The notes under the pieces: generated by a model
Seen by the model: the letters and a program-made list of their open reading frames with translations, nothing else
Database searches by the model: none
Told to the model about the DNA's origin: nothing
Source of the DNA: Rhodococcus sp. SGAir0479
Lineage (GTDB): Bacteria > Actinomycetota > Actinomycetes > Mycobacteriales > Mycobacteriaceae
Direction of reading: 5' to 3'
Assembly (NCBI RefSeq): GCF_005484805.1
Contig: NZ_CP039432.1
Location: forward strand, 4,526,001 to 4,590,000
DNA length: 64,000 nucleotides
Shown: positions 12,521 through 51,698 of the stretch, piece by piece
Layout: each line of letters begins with the position of its first letter
Position numbering within the stretch: the stretch's first letter is position 1
Position numbers and translations under genes: made by a program

Positions 12521-12555
12521 GTCGCGGCCACCGCCCGTCCCGGTAGCCTGCTGCC

Positions 12556-12867
12556 ATGGGCGAAACGGACCGGCTGTGGCGAGAGGTCGTCGGTGAGCAG
12601 ATTCGGCGCATCCGCACCGATCGCGCCGAGCGGCTGACGGACGTGGCGGAGCGGTCCGGGGTGTCGCCGCAGTACCTGTCGGAGATCGAACGCGGACTCA
12701 AGGACCCGTCCTCCGAGTTGCTGGCCGCCGTCGCCGGCGCGCTGGGAACGAACATCGAGGGCCTGGTGCGGCGCGCGTACCCGCTCGCGCCCGTGGTGCG
12801 GCTCGCCGCCCCGGCCCCGCCGAGCGTTCGACGCGTGCCGCCCGGCCCGGTGTGCCTGGCGGCCTGA
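12556..12867 (+). CDS. XRE-family regulator, ClgR/PopR type, with C-terminal LAA
   Basis: A 103-residue protein with one Cro/CI helix-turn-helix (RLTDVAERSGVSPQYLSEIERG) followed by SSELLAAVAGALG, the conserved pattern of ClgR and PopR, which activate clp genes in actinobacteria. It ends in CLAA. In Streptomyces, PopR is degraded by ClpP through its two C-terminal alanines, so the ending here is a likely degron. The gene faces the two-gene clpP operon and is the obvious candidate to control it. The Pro-rich tail after residue 75 lacks recognisable structure. Confidence 0.85.
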   Translation: MGETDRLWREVVGEQIRRIRTDRAERLTDVAERSGVSPQYLSEIERGLKDPSSELLAAVAGALGTNIEGLVRRAYPLAPVVRLAAPAPPSVRRVPPGPVCLAA

Positions 12868-12892
12868 CGGCCGACCGGGGCACGCCGGGACG

Positions 12893-13492
12893 TCAGGGGT
12901 GGGCGCGGTTCGCGACCACCGTGTCGACGATTCCGTAGTCGATCGCCGCGTCGGGCGCGAGGACCAGCTGCCGCTCGATGTCGGTGCGGACCTGGTGGGC
13001 GCTGCGGCCGGTGCGGTCGGCCAGAATCTGTTCCTGGAGCCGGCGGACCCGCTCGATCTCCTCGGCCTCGAGCACGAGATCCGGGATGGCGGCCCGCCCA
13101 CCCTCGGTGACCGGTGGATGCAGCACCACGCGTCCGTGCCGCAGAATCGACCGCCGTCCGGGAGTGCCCCCCGCCAGCAGCAGGGCCGCGCTGCCGACCG
13201 CCTCGCCCACGCAGGTCGTCTCGATGGGGGCCTGGACGAACTGCATCGCGTCGTACACCGCCAGCACCGACGCCAGGGCGCCGCCGGGTGAGTTGATGTA
13301 CAGGGAGATGGGCCGCTCCGGCCCCTCGCTCTCGAGGTGCAGCAACTGGGCGATGACGGCGTTCGCGACGCCCTGGTCCACTGCGGTGCCGAGGTACACG
13401 ATGCGCTCGGCCAACAATCGGCTGTAGATGTCGACCGTCCGTTCGCCGCTGGAGGTCGACAGGGTGACGTAGGGGATCGTGTACGTGCTCAC
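12893..13492 (-). CDS. ClpP-like subunit lacking catalytic Ser and Asp (ClpR-like)
   Basis: A 199-residue ClpP fold ([39 protein letters not shown]). The active-site segment reads [13 protein letters not shown] where active ClpP has CMGQAASMGAFLL, so the serine position is Gly100 with a Ser one place later. His125 is kept (VVLHPP). The third residue, Asp in ERDRFLSAPEA, is Gln175 ([11 protein letters not shown]). It is therefore probably inactive and may pair with the active ClpP encoded just upstream, with which it shares a 4-bp ATGA overlap, as ClpR does in cyanobacteria and plastids. Confidence 0.85.
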
Positions 13493-14112
13493 CGCGCCAC
13501 CCCCAGTCCGAACGTGCGGGAGAGGCGGCGGGGAATCACGTCGTCGAGCGTCGTGACGATCCCGTCGACGAAGCCGTACTCGCGCGCCTCGTCCGCGGTG
13601 AACCAGCGGTCGCGCACCGAGTCCTCGGTGATCTGGTCGACCGGTCTTCCGGTGTCCTCGGCGATACAGGCGAGGACGGTGTCCCGGGTGTGACGGATGT
13701 CGTCGGCCTGGATCGCGACGTCCGGCGCCGAACCGCCCACCCCGCCGGAGCCCTGGTGCAGCAGCACCTTCGAGTGCGGCAGCGCCAGGCGCTTCCCTCG
13801 GGTCCCGGCCGACAGCAGGAACTGGCCCGCGCTGTAGGCCATCCCCAGATTCACCGTCGCGACATCGTTGGGCACCGCGCGCATGCAGTCGCGAATCGCG
13901 AGCATGCCGGGCACCGATCCGCCGGGCGAATTGATCAGCAACGCGATGTCCGACTCCGGGTCCTCGGCGGCCAGGACGAGCAGCGCGGTGCAGATGCGGT
14001 TGGTGTTGGCCTGCTCGAGCGCGTCACCGAGCAGGATCATCCGCTGCGCGAACAGGCGTTGATTGAGATCGCGGTCGAGTACCGCGGTGGGATCGATCGT
14101 GTTTTCCGACAT
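13489..14112 (-). CDS. clpP: ATP-dependent Clp protease proteolytic subunit, triad intact
   Basis: A 207-residue ClpP. Ser94 lies in [13 protein letters not shown], His119 in SKVLLHQG and Asp168 in [11 protein letters not shown], so the triad is complete. With a Clp ATPase it degrades unfolded or tagged proteins in the cytoplasm. It is the first gene of a two-gene operon with the degenerate ClpP. The essential clpP1P2 pair normally sits beside tig/clpX, so this is probably an accessory pair comparable to Streptomyces clpP3clpP4. ATG 14112 starts the homologous sequence; the frame is open further upstream but overlaps the tRNA terminator. Confidence 0.9.
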
Positions 14113-14228
14113 GCGCTCGACTCTGCGGCGCGGGGATCCGGCGGACAATGCCACGCTGCTGTGAGCGGATCCGCCCACGGCGAACGGCGCCCGGCCCGCC
14201 GTGGCGGCACCCGGCCCCGAACGAGAAA

Positions 14229-14257
14229 GACCCCGTCCGAACGTGTCGGACGGGGTC
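14229..14257 (-). terminator. Terminator downstream of tRNA-Pro
   Basis: GACCCCGTCCGA and TCGGACGGGGTC form a 12-bp stem with a 5-nt loop. On the minus strand it is followed by a T-rich run (TTTCT). It separates the tRNA from the clpP operon. Confidence 0.8.
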
Positions 14258-14271
14258 TTGCTGTTCTTCAC

Positions 14272-14348
<77 letters not shown>

Positions 14349-49597: not shown

Positions 49598-50647
49598 TCA
49601 GACGCGGCTGACTCGGATCCGCCCGTCGACCACTCGCGCGGCCAGGGCGAGCGGTTCGGTTCCCACGGGCCGGTGCTGCAGCACCGCCGCCGCGAGCGGA
49701 TCGGCCAGTGCCGTACGGACTGTGCGCCGCAGGCCGCGGGCTCCGTACACGGGGTCGAAGCCCCGCCTTCGGAGGAACTCGACGACGTCCGGGCCGACGT
49801 GGACGGTGACCGACCGGCGGGCCAGGCGGCGGGTGACGACATCGATCTCGAGACCCGTCACCTCGTGGGCGGTCCGGTCGTCGAAACCGTTCATCACCAC
49901 CGTTTCGTCCAGCCGGTTGAAGAACTCGGGATCGAAGAATCGTTCGATCGCGCGCCGCACGACCGCGTCGTCCGCCCGAGGGCCCGTCCGGTTGCGCCGG
50001 CGGGCCACCCACGCCCGCGGCGTTCGGCGCCGCGCCGCCAGTTCGGCCGATCCGAGGTTCGAGGTCATGAACACGTAGCAATTGCGGAACGAGATGGACT
50101 GCTGACCGTTGGCCAGTCGCAGTTCCCCGTGGTCGAGGATCTGCAGCAGCGCCCGCAGGACCGTCGTGTCGGCCTTCTCCACCTCGTCGAACAGGACGAC
50201 GCCCGGTGTGTACGGATCACCCTCGACGGCACCGCGGTCGAAGAGGGTGAACGATTCCTTGCTGCCGGCGTAGCCCGGGGGAGCGCCGGAGAAGGACGCC
50301 GCGTAGTGCTCCTGCGCCAGCGCGTTCATGTCGATGCGGCACATGTCGTCCGGGCCGGATCGCAGTTCGGCGGCGACCTGCCGCACCAACTCGGTCTTGC
50401 CGACTCCGGTCGGCCCGGCCAGCAGGACGTTGGCAAGCGGACGGGACGGATCGTTCGCGCCGACCGAGGCCAACGACACCGCGCGCACGACCGCGTCGAT
50501 GGCGTTGCGTTGCCCCACGATCCGGGTGTTCAGCCGGTCGGCGAGGACGTCCGGGTCGAACGCGCCCGCCGGCCGCGGGGCCGGCGCGGCAGTCGGCACC
50601 GGCTGCGCCCGGTTCTGGTCGTGGAACATGTCCGTGAGATAGGGCAC
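49598..50647 (-). CDS. amiB: AmiB-like ClpB/ClpA-type AAA+ ATPase (single module)
   Basis: A 349-residue protein containing a single AAA+ module equivalent to the second ClpA/ClpB ATPase domain: Walker A GPTGVGKTEL, pore loop GYAG, Walker B VVLFDEVEKAD, sensor 1 FMTSNLGS, arginine finger FFNRLDETVV and sensor 2 YGARGLRR. It lacks the ClpA/B N-domain and first ATPase. AmiB in the Pseudomonas amidase operon has this layout and is thought to be a chaperone for amidase or transporter. GTG start 13 nt after amiE, with GGGAGG. Confidence 0.87.
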   Translation of the reverse strand: MPYLTDMFHDQNRAQPVPTAAPAPRPAGAFDPDVLADRLNTRIVGQRNAIDAVVRAVSLASVGANDPSRPLANVLLAGPTGVGKTELVRQVAAELRSGPDDMCRIDMNALAQEHYAASFSGAPPGYAGSKESFTLFDRGAVEGDPYTPGVVLFDEVEKADTTVLRALLQILDHGELRLANGQQSISFRNCYVFMTSNLGSAELAARRRTPRAWVARRRNRTGPRADDAVVRRAIERFFDPEFFNRLDETVVMNGFDDRTAHEVTGLEIDVVTRRLARRSVTVHVGPDVVEFLRRRGFDPVYGARGLRRTVRTALADPLAAAVLQHRPVGTEPLALAARVVDGRIRVSRV

Positions 50648-50660
50648 GGTGGGCCTCCCG

Positions 50661-51698
50661 TCAGGCCTCGGAGGTCCGCTCGACGGGCAGGGACCCTACC
50701 CGACAATCGGCAACGCCCACAGTGTCTCTCGTGATCGATTCGACGCGTTCCCGGGCCTTCTCGGCGTCGGTGACCCACAGCTTGTAGAACTCGAACGGGC
50801 AGTCGGCGACGCCCTTGTCGCCGTCGCCGGCGGCGTGGACTCCCGAGTAGCCGCGGTGGAGGAGCTTGAACAGGTGGTTCTGCGACTGGTCGTTCTCGCG
50901 GGCGTCACGGATCGCGGAGACCGACAACTGGGCGTACTGGATTCCGTACTCTTCCTCGCCGGTCTCGCCCAGGGTCCGTCCGTCGAAGCCGATGATCGCC
51001 GAGTGGCCGAAATACGAGTAGACGCCGTCGAATCCGGCGGCGTTCGCCACGGCGACGTAGCAGTTGTTCGCCCATGCCATTGCCTTGGACATGAGGACCT
51101 GCTGGTCCTTCGACGGGTACATGTAGCCCTGGCAGCGCACGATCAGTTCGGCGCCCTTCATTGCGCAGTCCCGCCAGATCTCGGGGTAGTTGCCGTCGTC
51201 GCACACGATGAGCGAGATCTTCAGCCCCTTCGGTCCCTCCGTGACGTACGTCGTGTCGCCCGGGTACCAGCCCTCGATCGGGCACCACGGCAGGATCTTG
51301 CGGTACTTCTGGACGATCTCACCGCGGTTGTTGACGAGGATCAACGTGTTGTACGGCGGCTTGTTCGGGTGATCCTCGTGTTGTTCACCGGTGATCGAGA
51401 AGACGCCCCACGTGTCGGCCTCGCGGCACGCGGCCGAAAATATCGCGGTCTCGTCGCCGGGGATCGTGGCGGCCGTGTCGTACATCTCCTGCTCGTCGTA
51501 CATGATTCCCTGCGTGGAGTACTCGGGGAACACCACCAGATCGAGTCCGGGCAGACCCGACTTCATGCCGATCATCATGTCGGCGATCCGGCGAGCGTTC
51601 TCGAGGACGCCGGCCCGGTCGTGCAGTCGGGGCATCTTGTAGTTGACCACCGCGACTCCGACGGTGTCCTTGCTCGAGGAGATGTCTCCGTGTCGCAT
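50661..51698 (-). CDS. amiE: Aliphatic amidase
   Basis: A 345-residue nitrilase-superfamily amidase that hydrolyses short aliphatic amides such as acetamide to acid and ammonia and can transfer acyl groups. The catalytic residues fall at the canonical positions Glu59 (FPEYS), Lys134 (YRKI) and Cys166 ([10 protein letters not shown]). Length and C-terminal extension match the hexameric Rhodococcus/Pseudomonas enzyme. AGAGGAA precedes the ATG. It is in the order amiS-amiE-amiB. Confidence 0.96.

Follow-up and report, generated by a model that had tools for sequence, protein, structure and literature searches.

The stretch of Rhodococcus sp. SGAir0479 DNA analysed here (64,000 nucleotides; hereafter the window) carries two overlapping clpP genes, of which the downstream one encodes a subunit with an incomplete active site, and the question raised is what such a subunit contributes beside an intact partner. 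The first-pass annotation had described it as a ClpP that lost its catalytic Ser and Asp and kept its His, translated together with a partner bearing a full triad, and had likened it to ClpR. Its residue assignments hold: in alignments to solved ClpPs and to this genome's own ClpP1 and ClpP2, Gly100 falls on the catalytic Ser, His125 on the His and Gln175 on the Asp, and the partner has its complete triad and overlaps by 4 bp. The nearest likeness is a different one, namely the PopR-controlled clpP3-clpP4 backup protease of actinobacteria, and the two genes are named clpP3 and clpP4 below (Table 1). To the earlier observation we add that ClpP3 has lost its docking pocket, and that a PopR-like regulator and an operator belong to the locus.

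Table 1. Features at and beside the clpP3-clpP4 locus, in window coordinates.
Feature	Position	Strand	Remarks
clpP4	12893..13492	-	ClpP-fold subunit; triad positions Gly100-His125-Gln175; pocket Ser63/Tyr65/Phe85
clpP3	13489..14112	-	ClpP-fold; intact Ser94-His119-Asp168; pocket Ala57/Leu59/Ala79; stop overlaps clpP4 start by 4 bp
popR-like XRE-family regulator	12556..12867	+	convergent with clpP4; C-terminus ...PVCLAA
Predicted PopR-type operator	14156..14168	-	CCGC-TCACA-GCAG, one mismatch to CTGC-N5-GCAG; ends 43 bases before clpP3 ATG
Shared block (operator, clpP3, clpP4, popR)	12553..14184		left edge varies with the relative compared (12553, 12559 or 12566)
tRNA-Pro (cgg)	14272..14348	-	just upstream of the block edge; neighbour, outside the block

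The clpP4 reading frame starts with GTG and encodes 199 amino acids; its product scores 187 bits against Pfam CLP_protease (PF00574), above the curated cut-off, and matches the ClpP fold. Neither accessory protein reaches the cut-off of the equivalog ClpP model TIGR00493 (308.6), ClpP4 scoring 186.6 and ClpP3 176.9. The Ser-His-Asp triad of an active S14 peptidase is present in ClpP3 and is replaced by Gly-His-Gln in ClpP4. This genome encodes four ClpPs, the pair in the window and a clpP1-clpP2 pair near 2.32 Mb. Phage relatives amount to 126 records. The best start of clpP3 is the ATG at 14112 (207 amino acids), and a longer GTG-start frame is also open. The four bases shared by the two genes are GTGA, and in 124 of the 129 pairs surveyed below the tetranucleotide that closes with the clpP3 stop codon is ATGA, GTGA or TTGA. 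This conserved overlap supports coupled translation of the pair, as had been proposed for the window alone. Together with the conserved loss in ClpP4, coupling makes a ClpP3-ClpP4 hetero-oligomer likely, one in which the dead subunit would control partner choice. The structural models of the two proteins were of monomers.

We surveyed 129 non-redundant accessory pairs (20 from named records, three from the window and two genus members, and 106 from other genomes) and 76 housekeeping pairs, 59 of them from genomes that also gave accessory pairs and 17 from others. Loci came from four lists (at most 30 from each) and from 60 further regions, with one 10-base filler and some repeats among them; for the housekeeping control, 76 genomes were examined and 60 regions taken, of which 59 were left after identical pairs were dropped. 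Four pairs from genomes with only two or three ClpPs (L110, L116, L157 and L168) were counted as housekeeping and not as accessory, the pieces of the frame-broken locus L008 were left out of the final counts, and six single clpP loci (L056, L057, L059-L062) yielded no pair. The 129 pairs were chosen by similarity to the window ClpP4, so the triad frequencies given here describe this sample and do not measure those in nature. Likewise, although 188 of the 401 family genomes and 89 of the 394 class genomes contain a match at E up to 1e-58, these figures are not prevalences, since some of the weaker matches are housekeeping ClpP2.

Every ClpP3 has an intact triad (129/129), as do all 76 ClpP1 and all 76 ClpP2 proteins, and only 29 of the 129 ClpP4 proteins have one. 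After clustering at 80% identity, intact triads are found in 17 of 54 ClpP4, 54 of 54 ClpP3 and 20 of 20 housekeeping ClpP2 sequences. In one-letter code and the order Ser-His-Asp, the ClpP4 triads are AHD (49), SHD (29), GHD (12), GHE (6), SGD (6), SHT (5), GHQ, AHE, WHT and SHN (3 each), SHS and EHH (2 each), and AAQ, AQD, WHD, FHN, SDD and SGE (1 each); 17 of these versions are altered. By residue, Ser is lost in 82, Asp in 30 and His in 10 of the 129. Loss in ClpP4 is thus a conserved property, and two aspects of the earlier description need revising: the Gly/Gln combination is one altered version among 17, and loss is not one-sided, for ClpP3 has given up docking-pocket residues (see below). 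On trees built by three methods without the three catalytic columns, the ClpP4 triads require at least 24 changes (the same number on all three), and at least seven switches between intact and non-intact states; support is weak at many forks (in the first tree, 55 of 141 are open), so that these counts hold for the best trees.

The Streptomyces-like ClpP4 proteins have lost a different residue. The catalytic His is missing from all seven of the Streptomyces-like pairs classed as f21/g52 (SGD in six, SGE in one), and the S. fungicidicus triad is SGD. Streptomyces-type ClpP4 with Gly in place of the catalytic His was observed at L111, L117, L144, L171, L172, L176, L177 and L252. Five Ser-His-Thr proteins (L131, L136, L138, L178 and L179) form a clade within the Ala-His-Asp proteins, with the Asp changed to Thr and Ser present. 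The nearest tree neighbour of the window clade, on a long branch, is the ClpP4 of a 2.9-Mb genome in the same family (L065; G362, g3), in which the whole triad is lost (Ala-Ala-Gln).

A convergent PopR-like gene lies downstream in 126 of 129 pairs, and 111 of the 123 copies not cut by the end of a locus terminate in Ala-Ala. The window copy has 103 residues, and among NCBIfam models it matches ClgR best, at 56 bits (below the cut-off of 170), as would be expected of a paralogue. In the roughly 300 bases upstream of clpP3, the palindrome CTGC-N5-GCAG is present without mismatch in 97 of 129 loci, where shuffled sequences would give 1.6, and with at most one mismatch in 126, compared with about 31 of 129 shuffled regions. 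The half-sites of this sampled operator match the PopR site of S. lividans, given in a review as TCTGCC-3N-GGCGAATCTGCC-3N-GGCAGA (PMC9775585). The same review holds that ClpP1P2 substrates are probably marked for degradation by a pair of alanines at the C-terminus. For S. lividans, the breakdown of PopR is reported to depend on ClpP1 and ClpP2, clpP3clpP4 is silenced while these work, and viability requires either clpP1clpP2 or clpP3clpP4, which indicates that the accessory pair can serve as a protease (PMC9765437). In the window we find a tandem pair with a 4-bp overlap that is distinct from clpP1-clpP2, a regulator beside clpP4 with an Ala-Ala tail, and an upstream operator with one mismatch; by this anatomy, the locus can be assigned to the clpP3-clpP4-popR backup-protease module already known from Streptomyces. 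A terminator-like hairpin, read by eye, follows the neighbouring tRNA-Pro gene, the two together occupying 14226-14348(-).

The operator is the only exact match in this genome to the pattern searched, and no genome-wide enrichment indicative of a PopR regulon was seen (one exact site and eight with one mismatch, against 41 in the reversed control). Nor did we find a Clp ATPase dedicated to the pair among ten genus members: matches to PF10431 number five to six in each, both in the three genomes with the pair and in the seven without it. The window does encode a single-domain AAA+ protein with a ClpB_D2-small match at 49598-50647(-), next to an amidase-like gene at 50661-51698(-); the two resemble amiB-amiE pairs. 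This AAA+ gene was rejected as the pair's ATPase on account of its amidase-like neighbour and of similar short matches in two pair-less genomes (G004 and G006).

For S. hawaiiensis ClpP1P2 it is reported that ClpX, ClpC1 and ClpC2 dock only on ClpP2, as established by mutating three pocket residues, and that cutting needs only the Ser of ClpP1, the active Ser of ClpP2 being dispensable (PMC9765437). From the residue numbers in that report, the pocket positions lie 37, 35 and 15 residues before the active Ser, and we read the same positions in all surveyed proteins. The central Tyr is present in 129/129 ClpP4, 29/129 ClpP3, 65/76 ClpP1 and 76/76 ClpP2 proteins; in ClpP3 the position is occupied by Trp in 68 and by Leu in 22. 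At the third position an aromatic residue (Phe, Tyr or, counted with them, His) is found in 129/129 ClpP4 (His in 18), 5/129 ClpP3, 64/76 ClpP1 and 76/76 ClpP2. Both markers are kept in all 129 ClpP4 proteins, in 53 of 76 ClpP1 and in no ClpP3. Triad and pocket are thus retained oppositely, which suggests that catalysis is guarded on ClpP3 and the docking residues on ClpP4.

A scan of the 34 columns that are universal in housekeeping ClpP gives a similar picture. ClpP4 retains Ser100 in 36%, Asp175 in 77% and His125 in 92% of sequences, and is also eroded at columns 62, 68, 69, 72, 113 and 126, most of which lie near the active site in the ClpP structure. L26, R30, G70, G71, D81, T92, G96, R114, D171 and D190 are kept in 100%. 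ClpP3 shows losses at Gly35, Asn67, Pro127 and, in part, Asp138, and columns 99 and 174 vary in both proteins. The ClpP3 cutting site is itself unusual, with Ala after the active Ser in 93 of 129 (Met in ClpP1), Gly two residues after the His in 108 of 129 (Pro in ClpP1) and, in many copies, Tyr or Cys in place of Ala before the Ser.

We favor, at a probability of roughly 70%, a reading in which PopR controls a spare protease whose cutting ring is made of ClpP3 and whose docking ring is made of ClpP4. The two products of coupled translation would stack as two seven-membered rings, all active sites would lie on the ClpP3 ring, and the ClpP4 ring, with no working site of its own, would form the entrance at which the host's ordinary Clp ATPases dock. 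We infer that in this organism, too, PopR is normally destroyed by housekeeping ClpP1P2 through its -LAA tail; if ClpP1P2 fails or is inhibited, PopR would accumulate, bind the CTGC-N5-GCAG operator and switch the spare protease on. Reports that ClpP3P4 is insensitive to ADEP (PMC12607617) and that S. coelicolor without clpP3 and clpP4 is killed by beta-lactones (PMC9775585) fit this arrangement.

Several observations count against it. Full triads persist in 29 ClpP4 proteins, and those of three Serinicoccus loci (L036, L039 and L041) and one Kineosphaera locus (L063) are nested among decayed (Ala) proteins, possibly as a returned active site or through tree error. Trp fills 68 of the 100 Tyr-less ClpP3 pockets and may still permit ATPase binding, and 104 of 129 ClpP3 proteins have an aromatic residue at one or other of the two positions. 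Pocket erosion has also begun in housekeeping ClpP1, where 11 of 76 are without the Tyr and 12 of 76 without the third aromatic. The two losses show no association by branch in an independent-pairs test of ClpP4 triad against ClpP3 Tyr, a test without power at three to four usable pairs. The third ClpP3 position is lost in 25 of 29 pairs with an intact ClpP4 and in 99 of 100 with a decayed one, so ClpP3 pocket loss is independent of ClpP4 triad loss; it may have come before it, and the two need not be coupled.

The strongest competitor, though in our judgement an unlikely one, is a mixed ring of the ClpR type, in which ClpP4 would alternate with ClpP3 to thin out active sites or to shape the chamber. 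There is precedent in the plastid core, where one ring combines ClpP1 with four dead ClpR subunits (PMC7966870), and the conserved overlap of stop and start codons would be in keeping with ClpP3 and ClpP4 being made in similar quantity. Yet ClpP1P2 of Pseudomonas and of Chlamydia is reported to have one ring per paralogue (PMC9753991), and apicoplast ClpP and ClpR rings are described as homogeneous (PMC7966870). The opposite loss of pocket and triad also fits one duty per ring better. Mycobacterial ClpP1P2 likewise has one ring per paralogue, which we count against mixing.

It is more improbable still that ClpP4 acts on the housekeeping core, joining ClpP1 or ClpP2 and poisoning or retuning it as ClpP-ADEP does to ClpP1. 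A ClpP paralogue that disrupts ClpP1 complexes does exist in S. hawaiiensis (PMC12607617), and PopR connects the accessory and housekeeping systems; however, the invariably intact ClpP3 beside ClpP4 would be needless for a pure inhibitor, and an inhibitor is hard to square with the S. lividans viability requirement described above. We give very little credence to ClpP4 remaining a peptidase through other residues such as Ser101, which adjoins the lost nucleophile. The alignment is ungapped around positions 94-106 and 169-180 in all 129 rows, which rules out a shift of register, and the Asp is lost too. Column 101 varies (A, T, V, S, P or G) with Ser100 kept or lost, Ser or Thr being found there in 19 of 47 ClpP4 proteins with Ser100 and in 31 of 82 without it, so the Ser that follows the Ser-to-Gly change is not the oddity it had first seemed; in relatives, position 100 may be Trp, Phe or Glu. 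That clpP4 is a decaying pseudogene has hardly any likelihood, for although one relative has a frame-broken copy and clpP4 has a higher dN/dS than clpP1 and clpP2, its dN/dS values (given next) led us to reject the idea, the pocket Tyr and many structural columns are unchanged in 129/129, and the gene is retained as a pair with popR across genera.

By simple counting over three genome pairs, dN/dS is 0.09-0.19 for clpP4, 0.05-0.09 for clpP3 and 0.02-0.04 for housekeeping clpP1 and clpP2. clpP4 is a kept gene under purifying selection, with weaker constraint than its housekeeping relatives. The pair is present in four of 14 genomes of the genus, and a block of about 1.6 kb recurs, with differing flanks, in four other Prescottella/Rhodococcus records, one of them a plasmid. 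Gly-His-Gln is shared by the plasmid copy and by two of the other three chromosomal ones, which excludes a single-strain mutation. The plasmid is p1-WH99 (432 kb) of a Prescottella equi soil strain and contains the whole block (L253; NZ_CP121764.1, 295934-297551). The remaining chromosomal copy, that of P. defluvii (CP121458.1; L055, 4869-5596), is the frame-broken one, its Gly lying in one fragment and its His and Gln in the second; the break is either a sequencing error or decay, the assembly being 79% complete.

The block has about 80% identity to three other genus members and ends at nearly the same places in each, and the 6-8 kb on either side differ between genus members apart from small scattered matches. 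A somewhat longer block, of about 2.0-2.1 kb, is common to the copies of Rhodococcus sp. OK519, P. defluvii and the P. equi plasmid. The window ClpP4 has a mean identity of 64% to Nocardioidaceae and 65% to Intrasporangiaceae, compared with 55% to the coded members of its own family (best 60%), and is 63% identical to that of Millisia, of the same order; the housekeeping ClpP2 of this genome is 81% identical to its counterparts in the family and 64% identical to those in the class. The simplest reading is that the clpP3-clpP4-popR block has passed between lineages, and the window copy looks acquired and relocated. A record named plasmid 10 of Tsukamurella (L254; NZ_LR134452.1) has proB next to the pair, and could be a chromosomal fragment.

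A further idea, which we put forward tentatively and consider doubtful, is that the block is a portable emergency protease of about 1.6 kb, spread among actinobacteria, hardened against Clp-directed natural products and induced when the normal protease fails. Split rings would escape activators acting through the catalytic ring's pocket, and the altered cutting site (Met to Ala after the Ser, Pro to Gly at His+2, Ala to Tyr or Cys before the Ser) would escape inhibitors fitted to the normal one.

Comparison with known systems places the window locus closest to the S. lividans clpP3-clpP4 operon, with which it shares an overlapping tandem pair, a convergent HTH regulator with an Ala-Ala end, and CTGC half-sites, as far as the sources cited describe that operon. 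The two types differ in that Streptomyces-like ClpP4 proteins lose the His whereas the window ClpP4 loses Ser and Asp (S. lividans itself lying outside the sequences compared), and the ClpP3 pocket is Ala/Leu/Ala in the window and Ser/Tyr/Leu in S. fungicidicus. Actinobacterial ClpP1P2 is likewise a core of two paralogues encoded by adjacent genes, with cutting by ClpP1 and ATPase docking by ClpP2 in S. hawaiiensis (PMC9765437); both of its subunits have the triad in 76/76 pairs, however, so that the split there is functional and not fixed in the active-site sequence. ClpP-ADEP of S. hawaiiensis also is an accessory paralogue that changes the make-up of the Clp core, but it is ClpP1-like, is encoded near an antibiotic gene cluster, is proteolytically active with ClpP2 and, in the account given by PMC12607617, is not described within a clpP-popR pair.

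ClpR proteins of cyanobacteria, plastids and apicoplasts resemble ClpP4 in having the ClpP fold without a working triad and in forming a core with active ClpPs (PMC7966870). ClpP4 also lacks triad residues and is encoded with an active ClpP, as is characteristic of ClpR. It scores 143 against NF009204 (cut-off 263), a cyanobacterial ClpR-like model. Our trees compared ClpP4 only with actinobacterial ClpP2-type proteins, and among these the loss recurs many times, through different residues. Inactive homologues of serine proteases are known more widely, a 2008 survey listing 42 among 966 proteins, in five families including Clp (PMC2605481).

Recurrent loss of the ClpP4 active site with opposite loss of the ClpP3 pocket was not found in the parts of the open-licence literature that were searched, the original PopR papers being beyond that scope. 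The pairs constitute a natural experiment on the division of labor in a multi-subunit protease: cutting and motor docking have come to lie on opposite subunits, and the active site has been taken apart along many separate routes. Why bacteria maintain two ClpPs thereby becomes a directly testable question. The comparison also implies that the Streptomyces ClpP4, in print since 2000, is probably without its catalytic His, and that, in some bacteria, a current antibiotic target has a spare that can be transferred.
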